From Betaproteobacteria bacterium MOLA814 (GTDB taxonomy: Bacteria > Pseudomonadota > Gammaproteobacteria > Burkholderiales > Burkholderiaceae_C), in assembly GCA_000496475.1 (NCBI GenBank), contig AYMW01000002.1, forward strand, positions 62,001 to 126,000: a stretch of 64,000 bases of DNA, written 5' to 3'. Of this stretch, positions 28,216-42,672 are shown piece by piece (within the stretch, counting starts at the first letter, position 1; each line of letters starts with the position of its first letter). The notes under the pieces were generated by a model. That model was not told the origin of the DNA. It ran no database searches and saw only the letters and a list, made by a program, of their open reading frames with translations. The position numbers and the translations under genes are program-made.

Positions 28216-28893
28216 TCAGCGCACGGCCCAGCCGCCTGACATGGGAAATACCTGCCCGACAAAGCAATCGGCCGCGTCGCTGCACAAGTAGGCCACAAAG
28301 CTGGTGTCTTCTTGTGCGCTGACCAATCGACCTAGCGGGACTTCTCGCTTTAGACGTTCTTGAAAACGTGGGTTGGCCTGCACCGCTGCAGGAAAGTAGG
28401 TGGGGTTGTCCACAAAATTTTGCGCAATCGCATTGACTTGTATGTTGTCTGGGGCCAACTCAACGCCCACGGCCTGAACAAACGCCAACTGCGCACCGCG
28501 TGCAGCGCTGTAACTGGCCGTGCGCTTCATGCCCCTCAACGCAGCTGCACTGCCCATGACAATGACTTTGCCACCCCCTCTGGCCTTCATGCCAGGCACC
28601 ACAGCGCGCAGCAGTCTGGGCAGTGGGTCGACCATGACTTCAAACACTTGGCGCCACTCGTCGTCTTGAATATCGGCTACAGGCGTAGAGGGTGCCGCCA
28701 TGGCCAGGTTGATGACCAACACGTCCAATGGCCCGGCACTGTCAATCAGTGCCTGGGAGTCGTGGGGCAGTGTCAACACGCGTGTATCTGAGATGACATG
28801 CGCGCCATGGTCAGCCAAGGTGGCGCACAGCGCAGGCCCCATGAAGGCGTCAGCTTGCGTGACCAAAATTCGTTTATCCGTTAAGTGTTGCAT
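28216..28893 (-). CDS. Halohydrin dehalogenase-like SDR-fold enzyme
   Basis: 225 residues from the ATG at 28893 (MQHLTDKRILVTQ); the longer frame upstream is non-conserved. It has an SDR fold but not SDR chemistry. The cofactor motif TGxxxGxG is replaced by T12-QADA-F17-M-G19, which fits the halide-pocket pattern T-x4-(F/Y)-x-G. The catalytic residues S115, Y128 and R132 fit S-x12-Y-x3-R, with Arg in place of the SDR Lys. NAIAQNFVDNPTYFP and GQVFPMSGGW also match this family. Halohydrin dehalogenases close vicinal haloalcohols to epoxides without NAD(P)H, and run the reverse opening with azide, cyanide or nitrite. It is divergent from an MFS exporter gene. Confidence 0.85.
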   Translation of the reverse strand: MQHLTDKRILVTQADAFMGPALCATLADHGAHVISDTRVLTLPHDSQALIDSAGPLDVLVINLAMAAPSTPVADIQDDEWRQVFEVMVDPLPRLLRAVVPGMKARGGGKVIVMGSAAALRGMKRTASYSAARGAQLAFVQAVGVELAPDNIQVNAIAQNFVDNPTYFPAAVQANPRFQERLKREVPLGRLVSAQEDTSFVAYLCSDAADCFVGQVFPMSGGWAVR

Positions 28894-29044: not shown

Positions 29045-30460
29045 ATGATTGCCACCACGCCAGTTGACCGTGCCCCGCCACATTGCCCTGATGGCACGCA
29101 GCGCAGCGACAAACAAGCGCTCATTGCTGTTTTTTTAGGTGTCGCACTCGCTGCGCTGGATACCTCTATTGCCAATACCGCCTTGCCCGCCATTGCACGT
29201 GACTTGCAAGCCACTGCGGCGCAATCTATTTGGATTGTCAATGCCTACCAACTGGCTGTGGTAGCGGCTCTTTTTCCATTGGCAGCATTGGGCGATTTGT
29301 GGGGTGCAAGACGTGTTTTTTTATGCGGCATAGCGCTCTTCACTGCGGCCTCATTGGCGTGTGCATTTGCTCCCACTTTGCTCACTCTGTCAGTGGCGCG
29401 CGCCTGTCAAGGCTTAGGCGCAGCCGGTGTCATGAGCGTGAACATTGCGCTGATCCGCATGCTGTTTCCCGCCTCTAGGTTGGGGCGAGGCGTGGGCCTC
29501 AACGCGTTGGTGGTGGGTACTTTTTTTGCGCTGGGCCCCAGCGTTGCTTCGTTGGTGTTGTCGGTGGCAACATGGCATTGGCTGTTTGCTATCAGCGTGC
29601 CTTTTGGCTTGCTAGCGCTGGTGTTTGCATGGCATACGTTGCCGGTTACGTTGCCCCAGTCTCACACCCTAGACCCCTTGTCTGCGGTCTTGTCAACGCT
29701 GTGCTTTGGCACCTGTATCTTCGCCATCAGTTCTGGTGCGCAGCTGTCTGGATGGTTGCAGTTTATAGGCTTGGTTGTGTTGGCGCTGTGTACTGGTGCG
29801 TGGCTCTTAAAGCGACAGCAAGGACACCCCGCGCCAATATTGCCTGTGGACTTGTTCCACATGCCCATGTTCAGCTTGTCTGCAGTCACAGCGGTCGGCG
29901 CGTTTGCTGCGCAAGGCGTGGCCTTTGTGGCGTTGCCCTTTTACTTTGAGCATGCGCTGGGCCGCGATCCAATTGAGACCGGCTTTCTTATGACAGCTTG
30001 GCCTGCCATGGTGGCCTTGCTCGCGCCATTTGCAGGGCGTTTGTCCGACCGCTATGCGCCAGGCCTGCTGTGCGGTATTGGTTTAAGCGTGCTGAGCGCA
30101 GGCATGGTGTCCCTGTTTATGTTGGATGGCCAATCCAGCACCCAGACCATCGTATGGCGAATGGCGTTGTGTGGCTTGGGTTTTGGCTTGTTTCAGTCGC
30201 CCAACCTCAAGGCCATCATGTCCAGCGCACCCGTTCACCGCTCCGGTGGTGCCAGCGGCGTCATTGGCATGGCGCGCTTGCTTGGGCAAACGACTGGTGC
30301 GGCCTCGGTTGCGCTGTGTTTTGGTCTAATAGGTGGGTTGGGTGCACATACAGCGTTGCTGGTAGGTGCCGTTGCCGCAGGCTTGGCCGCTGCGAGCAGT
30401 TTGTGCCGCTTAAAACTTCACACCACGCCCCCAGTTACGCCAGCCACAACAAACGGGTAA
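29045..30460 (+). CDS. MFS transporter, DHA-type drug:proton antiporter family
   Basis: About 471 residues from the ATG at 29045; an earlier in-frame start at 28961 would add a poorly hydrophobic tail. Multiple transmembrane helices begin at residue 24. Motif C-like and DHA2-like segments include LDTSIANTALPAIARDLQA, QSIWIVNAYQL, GDLWGARRVFL (motif A) and ARACQGLGAAGVMSVNIALI. These resemble EmrB-type exporters, though the length fits 12-14 helices. Its substrate is unknown; divergence from the halohydrin-dehalogenase-like gene, with a 151-bp shared region, hints at a link. The DMT gene follows by 7 bp. Confidence 0.88.
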   Translation: MIATTPVDRAPPHCPDGTQRSDKQALIAVFLGVALAALDTSIANTALPAIARDLQATAAQSIWIVNAYQLAVVAALFPLAALGDLWGARRVFLCGIALFTAASLACAFAPTLLTLSVARACQGLGAAGVMSVNIALIRMLFPASRLGRGVGLNALVVGTFFALGPSVASLVLSVATWHWLFAISVPFGLLALVFAWHTLPVTLPQSHTLDPLSAVLSTLCFGTCIFAISSGAQLSGWLQFIGLVVLALCTGAWLLKRQQGHPAPILPVDLFHMPMFSLSAVTAVGAFAAQGVAFVALPFYFEHALGRDPIETGFLMTAWPAMVALLAPFAGRLSDRYAPGLLCGIGLSVLSAGMVSLFMLDGQSSTQTIVWRMALCGLGFGLFQSPNLKAIMSSAPVHRSGGASGVIGMARLLGQTTGAASVALCFGLIGGLGAHTALLVGAVAAGLAAASSLCRLKLHTTPPVTPATTNG

Positions 30461-30467
30461 TACACCT

Positions 30468-31373
30468 ATGACACACAGCCAACGGGCTATTTCTGGCGCG
30501 GCCTTTCTAACGCTGCTCACCATTGCGTTGATGATGGGCGCCAACCATGTGGCTGCTAGGTTTGCTTTTGACAGTGGCGTGGATGTGGTGACAGCCATTG
30601 CTTTTCGCAGCGTACTCACTGCCTTTGTGATCGCCCTAATTGTGTGGCAACAGCGCGTGCCATTGATGTTGACGCGTCAGCAACAGCGCCACCTACCAGT
30701 CATCGGCTTGCTCATTGCCGTCCAAAGCTTTTGTCTGTACTCGGCGGTTGCACGGTTGCCTGTGGTCTTGGCCCTGCTGGCTTTCAACACCTACCCAATT
30801 TCTACCGCTCTGTGGGCACGCTTGTTGTACAAGCAGCGCCCGCAGCGCGAGGTATTGCTGGTTATACCGTTCATATTGCTTGGTTTGGCACTTGCGCTTG
30901 ACGTGTTGGGTGCGGCATCTGGCTTGAGCGCCAGCGCACACTGGCTGGACATTGGCAGCGGCGTGGCGTTTGCATTTGCAGCTTCGCTTACATTTGGCCT
31001 GTGTTTGGTGATTACAGAAAATGAAACCCGCGGCCTAGACGGACGCCTGCGCACCTTGTCAACGCTTGGCATTGTGGGACTGCTAGCAGTAGCCGCTGCG
31101 CTCAGCGGCGATGGGTTTCAACTGCCCAACGCATCGCCAGGGTGGTGGGGGTTGATGTTGCTGACGTTCTTGTACGGCACGGCGTTCACGGTAATGTTCA
31201 CGGTATTGCCCAAACTCGGTGTCGTGGGCAACTCTGCCATCATGAATGTGGAGCCCGTCTTTGCGCTGTTGTTGGCGTGGGCATTGTTGGGCCAGACCAT
31301 CGCCCCTATGCAAGTGGGAGGCGCATCACTGGTGGTGGTATCCGTTATGTGGCTGGGGCTGCGCAAGGGGTGA
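30468..31373 (+). CDS. EamA/DMT-family permease
   Basis: 301 residues, ten predicted helices in two EamA repeats: FLTLLTIALMMGANHVAARFAF at the N terminus and GTAFTVMFTVLPKLGVVGNSAIMNVEPVFALLLAW in the second half. The 'NVEPVFALLLAWALLGQTI' segment is the signature of the second repeat. Family members export amino acids or other metabolites; the substrate is not predictable. It starts 7 bp after the MFS gene, so the two are co-transcribed. The DUF2130 gene on the other strand ends 21 bp downstream. Confidence 0.88.
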   Translation: MTHSQRAISGAAFLTLLTIALMMGANHVAARFAFDSGVDVVTAIAFRSVLTAFVIALIVWQQRVPLMLTRQQQRHLPVIGLLIAVQSFCLYSAVARLPVVLALLAFNTYPISTALWARLLYKQRPQREVLLVIPFILLGLALALDVLGAASGLSASAHWLDIGSGVAFAFAASLTFGLCLVITENETRGLDGRLRTLSTLGIVGLLAVAAALSGDGFQLPNASPGWWGLMLLTFLYGTAFTVMFTVLPKLGVVGNSAIMNVEPVFALLLAWALLGQTIAPMQVGGASLVVVSVMWLGLRKG

Positions 31374-36955: not shown

Positions 36956-38554
36956 TCAAAAGTCAAAGGTGTCTTGCTTGGTGCTGACAGCCGCTGTGCG
37001 CCGGCTGGCCGTTTGCCTGGTGGGTGTGCCGCTTCGTTGGCCGTTGATGGGGGCGCGTTGCGATGCATGGCGTTTGATCACGCTGGCCTTGCCCGCGCGC
37101 ACATGGTCTTGTGCGCGGTAGGTGTGTAGGCGCTGTTTGGCTTGGCGGGTTGCCAGCTCCAAGTCCACCACAGGCGTGGGTATGTCAATGCCAACCCGCA
37201 CGCCGCAGTTCTGCTGCACAGACTCTGGCATGCGCCAAGGCTCTAGCAGCCAGGTGTCTGGTACTTGGCGCAGCGCAGGCAACCAGCGCCTAACAAACTC
37301 ACCCTGCGGGTCGTGGTCTTGGGCTTGTTTAACAGGGTTGTACACGCGCGTGGTGTTGATACCTGTGGTGCCCGATTGCATTTGCATTTGGCTCCAATGA
37401 ATGCCTGGCTCGTAGTCTAAAAACTGTGTGGCCAACCATGTGCCCACGTCGCGCCAGTGCAACCACAGCGGGTAAGCTGCAACAGATACCAACATGGCGC
37501 GCATGCGAAAGTTGATCCAACCCGTGGCTTGCAGCATGGCCACGCTGGCATCCACCATGGGCCAGCCTGTTTGGCCCGTTGTTAGGGCTTGAAAGTGGGT
37601 GTCGTTCCAGTCGGCCTCGCGCAGGCCGTTGTAGCCTTGGTGCATGTTGCGCCATTCAATGGCCGGCTCGGTTTCTAGTTTTTGTATGAAATGGCAATGC
37701 CAGTGCAAGCGGCTCACCATGGCGTTCAAGCCTTGTCGGTTGCGCGCGGGTAACTGGGCTTGTGCGGCTGCGTGGCGCGTGGCTTGCACCACCTCGCGCA
37801 TGCTGACGCAGCCAAACGTGAGGTAGGGGGACAAACGCGAGCAAGCCGTGGGTGCTGAGAGTGGCGACGATATACCGCCTCTGTATGAGCCACTGCGCTC
37901 GTTTAAAAACGAGTTGAGCACGCCCAAGGCGTTGTCGCGACCACCCCGTTGTCGGTGCGTTGGCTCGTGTGTGGACAAGCCCAGTTGGTCGGCGCTGGGG
38001 ACGCGCAGCATGGCCGGCGTGAGGTGCGACAAGCCGTTGCTGACCCGTGGGTCATGCCAGTTGCCTGTGGGTGCAAGCAGTGGGAGCACGCCCATGTGGC
38101 GCTCCCATTGCGCGGCCCAGCGCGCACGCACTTGCAAGCCGCGCTCTACGCCAAATTGGGGCAACTCCAGCCAGGTAATACGGTTGTGTTGTGTCCACTG
38201 GCCTACGGCTATGTCGCGCGCATAGCTGGCGGCGTTGCCTGTTTCTTCGTGGCTGAGCAAGGTGGTGAACGCAGTGGCCGTGTGCAGCACGCCCAAGGCC
38301 TCAATGGCGTTGGCGTGCAGCACATACAAGGGCAGGCCGATGCGCTGGAGTTGTTCGCGCAGATCGCGCAGACATTCCAATACAAAGTGGTAGTGCTGCC
38401 TAGCCGCATCGGGCTGTGCCCACAGGGCGGGTTCAATACAGTACAAACACACCACCGGCCCGTGCGTGGCTACTTGGGACAGTGCGTGTGAAAGCGGTGC
38501 GTGATCTGTAACGCGCAAATCGCGCTTAAACCAAACCAGCTGGGTAGAGCTCAT
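36956..38554 (-). CDS. Cryptochrome/photolyase-family flavoprotein, atypical
   Basis: 532 residues. The Rossmann antenna domain starts LVWFKRDLRVTDHAPLSHAL; the FAD domain has SRLSPYLTFGCVSMREVV, WHCHFIQKLETEP, GWPMVDASVAMLQATGWINFRMR and DPQGEFVRRWLPAL. In the flavin pocket, where E. coli photolyase reads DGDLAANNGGWQW, this protein reads DYEPGIHWSQMQM. So by my alignment the Asn near flavin N5 is His and the terminal Trp of the electron-transfer chain is Met. The C terminus adds about 50 basic residues (RAGKASVIKRHASQRAP). It may repair DNA or act as a light sensor; the class is unclear. Confidence 0.85.
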   Translation of the reverse strand: MSSTQLVWFKRDLRVTDHAPLSHALSQVATHGPVVCLYCIEPALWAQPDAARQHYHFVLECLRDLREQLQRIGLPLYVLHANAIEALGVLHTATAFTTLLSHEETGNAASYARDIAVGQWTQHNRITWLELPQFGVERGLQVRARWAAQWERHMGVLPLLAPTGNWHDPRVSNGLSHLTPAMLRVPSADQLGLSTHEPTHRQRGGRDNALGVLNSFLNERSGSYRGGISSPLSAPTACSRLSPYLTFGCVSMREVVQATRHAAAQAQLPARNRQGLNAMVSRLHWHCHFIQKLETEPAIEWRNMHQGYNGLREADWNDTHFQALTTGQTGWPMVDASVAMLQATGWINFRMRAMLVSVAAYPLWLHWRDVGTWLATQFLDYEPGIHWSQMQMQSGTTGINTTRVYNPVKQAQDHDPQGEFVRRWLPALRQVPDTWLLEPWRMPESVQQNCGVRVGIDIPTPVVDLELATRQAKQRLHTYRAQDHVRAGKASVIKRHASQRAPINGQRSGTPTRQTASRRTAAVSTKQDTFDF

Positions 38555-41782: not shown

Positions 41783-42484
41783 TTATTGGGGCTGGCCCAG
41801 CAGCGCGGCCAGTTCTACAAAGTTGCTTGCGTGCCATGTGTTGTCGACGCAAGGCGATATGTCTTTGGGTTGGGCTGTGCCAAATTCGTGTGGGCGTTCA
41901 ATATAGGCGGTTTGCAGGCCACAGGTGCGTGCAGCTGCCAGGTCATCTTGGTGTGCGGCAACCAGCATGACTTGCTCTGGTGCCACATCAAATGTGCTGG
42001 CCACGCCCAAGTAGGTGGCGGGGTCGGGCTTGTAGGCGCGAAATACTTCGGCAGACAAAACACAGTCCCAAGGCAAGCCTGCCTGTTTGGCCATGTTGGC
42101 GAGCAAGCCCATGTTGCCGTTGCTCAAGGTACAAATGGTGAATTGTTGCTTCAGTAGCCCGAGACCTTGCACAACGTCAGGCCAAGGATTGAGCCTGTGC
42201 CATACGCGGTTGAGGTGTTGGCGCTGCGATTCGTTGAGGTGCTCCAAACCATGGTCTGGCAACAAGCCATTGAGTATGAGGCGGTGTAAGTCGTCAATTC
42301 GTGTCCAGCCCAACTCGCCGCTGCGCACACGCTGCATGGCGGGTTGGTAGCCCGCTCGCCAAGCCAGCGCAAACGCGTTGCCGTCAACGTGCGGGTACAA
42401 CTGGTGCAGCTCAGCAACAATGCTGCCATGCCAGTCCACCACAGTGCCAAATACATCAAAAGCCAGGATCAAGGGTTTGTTCAT
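41783..42484 (-). CDS. HAD-superfamily hydrolase, haloacid dehalogenase type II-like
   Basis: 233 residues from the ATG at 42484. Motif I AFDVFGTVVDW carries the nucleophile D10; R43 (LAWRAGY) matches the substrate Arg of L-2-haloacid dehalogenase; motif II CTLSNGNM and motif III AYKPDPATY are conserved. The last motif reads AAHQDDLAAA instead of SSNxWD, so two substrate-site residues of characterised enzymes differ. Type II enzymes replace the halogen of S-2-haloacids with hydroxyl. Dehalogenation is possible but unproven; a small phosphatase activity is the alternative. It is a single gene. Confidence 0.82.
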   Translation of the reverse strand: MNKPLILAFDVFGTVVDWHGSIVAELHQLYPHVDGNAFALAWRAGYQPAMQRVRSGELGWTRIDDLHRLILNGLLPDHGLEHLNESQRQHLNRVWHRLNPWPDVVQGLGLLKQQFTICTLSNGNMGLLANMAKQAGLPWDCVLSAEVFRAYKPDPATYLGVASTFDVAPEQVMLVAAHQDDLAAARTCGLQTAYIERPHEFGTAQPKDISPCVDNTWHASNFVELAALLGQPQ

Positions 42485-42672
42485 GGTCGCATTATTGGCT
42501 GGGTGAGGTCTGTTGCGCTGTCGCTCAATGTGGTTCTGTAGGTTTTTGTTCACATTGTCTTATTGACTCTAGTCCAAATATTGTGCTTTGTGGTGCGCAC
42601 TGATGGGTATTGCATTCGAATGCATAAATGTTAAATTACAGGATTCAGAAACGCTCAACTCACAGAAAGCTT

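Follow-up and report, generated by a model that had tools for sequence, protein, structure and literature searches.

Does the 225-aa protein encoded on the minus strand at 28893-28216 of the Betaproteobacteria bacterium MOLA814 window (the whole stretch of 64,000 nucleotides analyzed here) belong with the NAD(P)-dependent SDRs, or is it a halohydrin dehalogenase (HHDH)? HHDHs remove halide from small haloalcohols, yielding epoxides. The open reading frame begins with an ATG at 28893-28891 and ends with a stop codon at 28218-28216, and the gene call draws on the translation, matches to PDB sequences, fold matches and a family alignment. Its coordinates agree with those of an initial annotation, which named it an HHDH and gave no strand. 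The host genome consists of three contigs totaling 2.86 Mb, and a locus labelled as an uncultured Comamonadaceae bacterium is near-identical, with 98% identity at the protein level. Judging from sequence comparison, the gene, referred to here as hheD, very probably encodes a D-type HHDH.

Fingerprint motifs and expected chemistry

Published criteria for HHDHs are a T-x4-F/Y-x-G motif that replaces the TGxxxGxG of SDRs, together with an S-x12-Y-x3-R motif (PMC4989007, PMC11976700), and the hheD product carries both. Motif 1, T12-QADA-F17-M-G19 (28837-28860, minus strand), corresponds to the nucleophile/halide pocket, and motif 2, S115-x12-Y128-x3-R132 (28498-28551, minus strand), to the catalytic triad. 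The discriminators invoked in the initial annotation are these same published fingerprints, and T12, F17, G19, S115, Y128 and R132 each lie where it had placed them. Likewise, the NFVDNPTYFP loop (residues 159-168; 28390-28419, minus strand), which is common to HheD2, and the C-terminal motif GQVFPMSGGW (residues 213-222; 28228-28257, minus strand) read as it had quoted them. Neither part of the classical SDR signature, T-G/A-x3-G/A-x-G and Y-x3-K, is found in the hheD product.

When the same protein was shuffled 200,000 times and motif 1 was sought within the first 30 residues, motif 1 and motif 2 occurred together at a rate of 2e-5. All six motif residues are invariant in an alignment of 48 relatives, as are N159, V161, N163, Y166, F167 and W222. 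Seven SDRs from the same genome were checked; each has YxxxK along with a TGxxxGxG-type motif, and both HHDH motifs are missing from all seven. Both HHDH motifs are present at 111 matched loci of more than 55% identity, a count that combines different tools and in which the same genome may recur. Three further loci above this identity have motif 2 only, which in at least two cases is explained by a match that begins past motif 1 at a contig end.

In HHDHs, the Ser-Tyr-Arg triad supports cofactor-free intramolecular displacement of the halide, and an anion pocket replaces the nicotinamide site (PMC4989007, PMC11976700). By analogy with the family, the hheD product would be expected to act in the same way. 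Tyr128, its pKa lowered by Arg132, would abstract the hydroxyl proton of a vicinal haloalcohol while Ser115 holds the substrate oxygen; the freed halide would occupy the anion pocket around Thr12, Phe17 and Gly19, and the product would be an epoxide, formed without NAD(P)H.

Subtype, phylogeny and predicted fold

The initial annotation had proposed a sequence search against HHDHs and classical SDRs. In a phmmer search of PDB sequences, 7b73 (HheD2) ranked first (E 5.8e-94), 8xxb (HheD8) came next (1.8e-80), HheB took third place (2.5e-47), and ordinary NAD(P)-dependent SDRs trailed far behind. The predicted structure gave the same order, aligning with HheD2 over 220 residues at 64% identity (VIA Z 33.2, rmsd 1.7), with HheD8 at 57% identity (Z 31.1) and with HheB at 40% identity (Z 30.7), and the best row outside the HHDHs reached Z 27.2 at 28% identity. 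HheD2 shares both motifs with the hheD product, as well as the NFVDNPTYFP loop, a near-identical C-terminus and a short N-terminal half, but comes from another genome and differs by about 35% substitutions. HheD8, solved as a triple mutant with chloride, is alike in motifs and fold and is more diverged than HheD2. HheB (PDB 4zd6) has both motifs and falls in the same length class, but it belongs to another subtype and its motif 1 has Tyr where the hheD product has Phe. HheC from Agrobacterium radiobacter AD1 (PDB 1pwx) has both motifs and the expected chemistry, whereas its identity is only 27-29% (measured against engineered HheC chains aligned by structure) and it is longer by about 22 residues between strands 2 and 4 and by a C-terminal extension. 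The HheC reference sequence used here agreed with 1pwx from end to end.

The identities also speak to the subtype. For HheD19-38, identities of 57-95% to verified HheD enzymes have been quoted (PMC4989007), and the hheD product is 64-65% identical to HheD2 and 57-58% to HheD8, versus 38-41% to HheB. A maximum-likelihood tree of the hheD product, HheB, HheC, HheD2, HheD8, 6a41, 24 relatives and six SDRs from the same genome separated the hheD product and HHDH references from the SDRs with support of 100/99; the bootstrap had not converged, and neither the order within the D clade nor the position of HheB relative to D is resolved by this tree. Published fingerprints, closest solved structures and phylogeny thus all bear out the HHDH call of the initial annotation. 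Its remark that such a protein would normally be mislabelled was fair, as Pfam, NCBIfam and PDB molecule names all read "SDR"; even 7b73 and 8xxb carry merely this molecule name, with their identity as HheD2 and HheD8 given in the entry titles.

An AlphaFold model of the hheD product (pLDDT 86.2) has six strands, with low confidence at residues 118-122 within motif 2. The strands probably correspond to beta1, beta2 and beta4-beta7, which would be one beta-alpha unit fewer than in the classical SDR core, and the protein is ~22 residues shorter than HheC in the stretch of the missing unit. The SDR glycine motif is lost. The predicted absence of this unit, together with the shorter stretch, would be compatible with an absent nucleotide site.

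It is scarcely credible that the protein is instead a diverged NAD(P)-dependent SDR, altered at the sites of the cofactor motif and the Lys but still with some oxidoreductase activity: Pfam and NCBIfam offer SDR families only, matching mostly the region C-terminal to the cofactor motif, but no NCBIfam model is matched above its curated cut-off, both diagnostic motifs are those of HHDHs, HHDHs are the closest solved proteins, the tree excludes the SDRs of the same genome and the cofactor motif is replaced throughout the 48 relatives.

Distribution and genomic neighborhood

Relatives of the hheD product are encoded in 377 pattern-matched stretches of genome_contigs. The best 80 of these 377 are mainly from Burkholderiales and Rhodocyclales, and the rest of the 80 are scattered among gamma-, alpha- and deltaproteobacterial, planctomycete and other MAG records. 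Under a strict cut-off, 39 of the 301 genomes in the host's family encode a relative, at 62-100% identity. A relative was found in 3 of the 10 genomes of the host's genus and in 4 of 398 genomes of a phylum sample, all four from the host's own family. The family was initially described as having few characterized members, which is outdated given that D-type enzymes were listed up to HheD38 in 2016 and that hundreds of relatives were found here.

In two congeners (G217 and G306), the gene that follows SodB is homologous to the one at 36.9 kb in the window, and the window segment from ~28.1 to 36.9 kb, including hheD, is therefore variable. Between SodB and the photolyase-like gene (36956-38554), these two genomes lack the segment, which in the window contains hheD, the MFS and EamA genes, a coiled-coil protein and two M16-type peptidases. 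Within the genus, G288 has the closest copy of hheD, still beside SodB and XseA. A scan between SodB and hheD found no intrinsic terminator. An origin of hheD from a mobile element was rejected, as the window has no tRNA and the locus no GC shift.

Divergent from hheD are genes for a DHA2/EmrB-like MFS transporter (29045-30460, plus strand; start inferred at 29045 in a frame open from 28961) and, 7 bp past it, an EamA (DMT) transporter (30468-31373, plus strand). This layout had been described correctly in the initial annotation, and the distance from the hheD start is 151 bp, assuming an MFS start at 29045. Neighbor questions were answered by tblastn because a simple gene caller lost hheD in ~30 loci to long antisense ORFs. 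Near the other D-type loci fetched, tblastn recovered nothing homologous to the EamA gene and nothing close to the MFS gene, for which the single match was weak (24% identity). The transporter pair thus has no conserved association with D-type loci, is uninformative on hheD function and was rejected as a partner of hheD. It is accordingly most improbable that HheD works together with the MFS and EamA transporters as a single module, for instance for detoxification and export. The divergent adjacency in the window speaks for such a module, as does a Novosphingobium relative that also abuts an MFS gene, although convergently; against it stand the tblastn results at other D-type loci and the variability of the whole segment in the two congeners.

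Indeed, no neighbor is conserved across ~80 D-type loci. The exception is a set of Burkholderiales contigs in which hheD lies near urease genes and a gene for a secreted alpha/beta hydrolase with a Ser nucleophile (GHSMG), an arrangement that is most simply explained as lineage synteny. The secreted hydrolase is found near hheD at ten loci (L053, L055, L056, L062, L070, L085, L093, L100, L110 and L115), with urease genes next in most. It was rejected as an epoxide hydrolase on account of its Ser nucleophile.

Physiological role

A role in detoxification and degradation of haloalcohols is assumed in the literature (PMC11536340). The most likely role of the hheD product in the cell, although a weakly supported one since no neighbor is conserved in the ~80 D-type loci and an epoxide hydrolase is adjacent in only one of them, is to scavenge or detoxify small haloalcohols or epoxides. 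The epoxide would be handed to either of two epoxide-hydrolase-like proteins encoded apart from hheD. These are two Asp-nucleophile alpha/beta hydrolases of the host genome (L144 and L148, contig C1), with the motifs GHDWG and GQDWG, and their closest relatives among solved proteins are epoxide hydrolases. The genome also encodes two type II haloacid dehalogenases above the curated cut-off. All four genes are unlinked to hheD and are thus circumstantial for the role. One of the two dehalogenases, a type II (S)-2-haloacid dehalogenase, is located within the window at 41783-42553 (minus strand), ~13 kb from hheD, and scores 166 bits against an NCBIfam cut-off of 125.4; among solved proteins, it is also related to cis-epoxysuccinate hydrolase.

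The adjacent case is a D-type locus of 70% identity in a Halopseudomonas MAG (L095), where an epoxide-hydrolase-like gene with the motifs HGFP and GHDWG lies in the same orientation, 69 bp upstream. The two genes, epoxide hydrolase then hheD, make up a putative operon at L095:4948-6669. A more distant relative of 43% identity (L168, NZ_CP017077.1 475700-488362), annotated "SDR", directly follows an annotated epoxide hydrolase on the Novosphingobium plasmid pSA2, within a catabolic cluster. Both loci support the textbook pathway from haloalcohol to epoxide to hydrolysis.

These two adjacent epoxide hydrolases, and the role assumed in the literature, argue against a different reading, in which an enzyme of HHDH fold opens or closes rings on a native metabolite and haloalcohols are promiscuous substrates. 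In its favor are the wide but patchy spread of a stand-alone gene without catabolic neighbors, and a review that leaves room for other physiological functions of HHDHs (PMC4989007). We regard this reading as unlikely, though with a real chance of being correct. On a similar line, it is conceivable but doubtful that the widespread stand-alone D-type enzymes of aquatic Burkholderiales serve not for pollutants but for some common native metabolite, an epoxide or a haloalcohol, in which case "dehalogenase" would describe a side activity.

As a very probable D-type HHDH, the hheD product is an ordinary addition to a known subtype and leaves knowledge of the family unchanged. It would provide one more enzyme of this type, from a Comamonadaceae-type genome, and a potential biocatalyst. 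More broadly, D-type genes are common in Burkholderiales yet carry SDR labels only.
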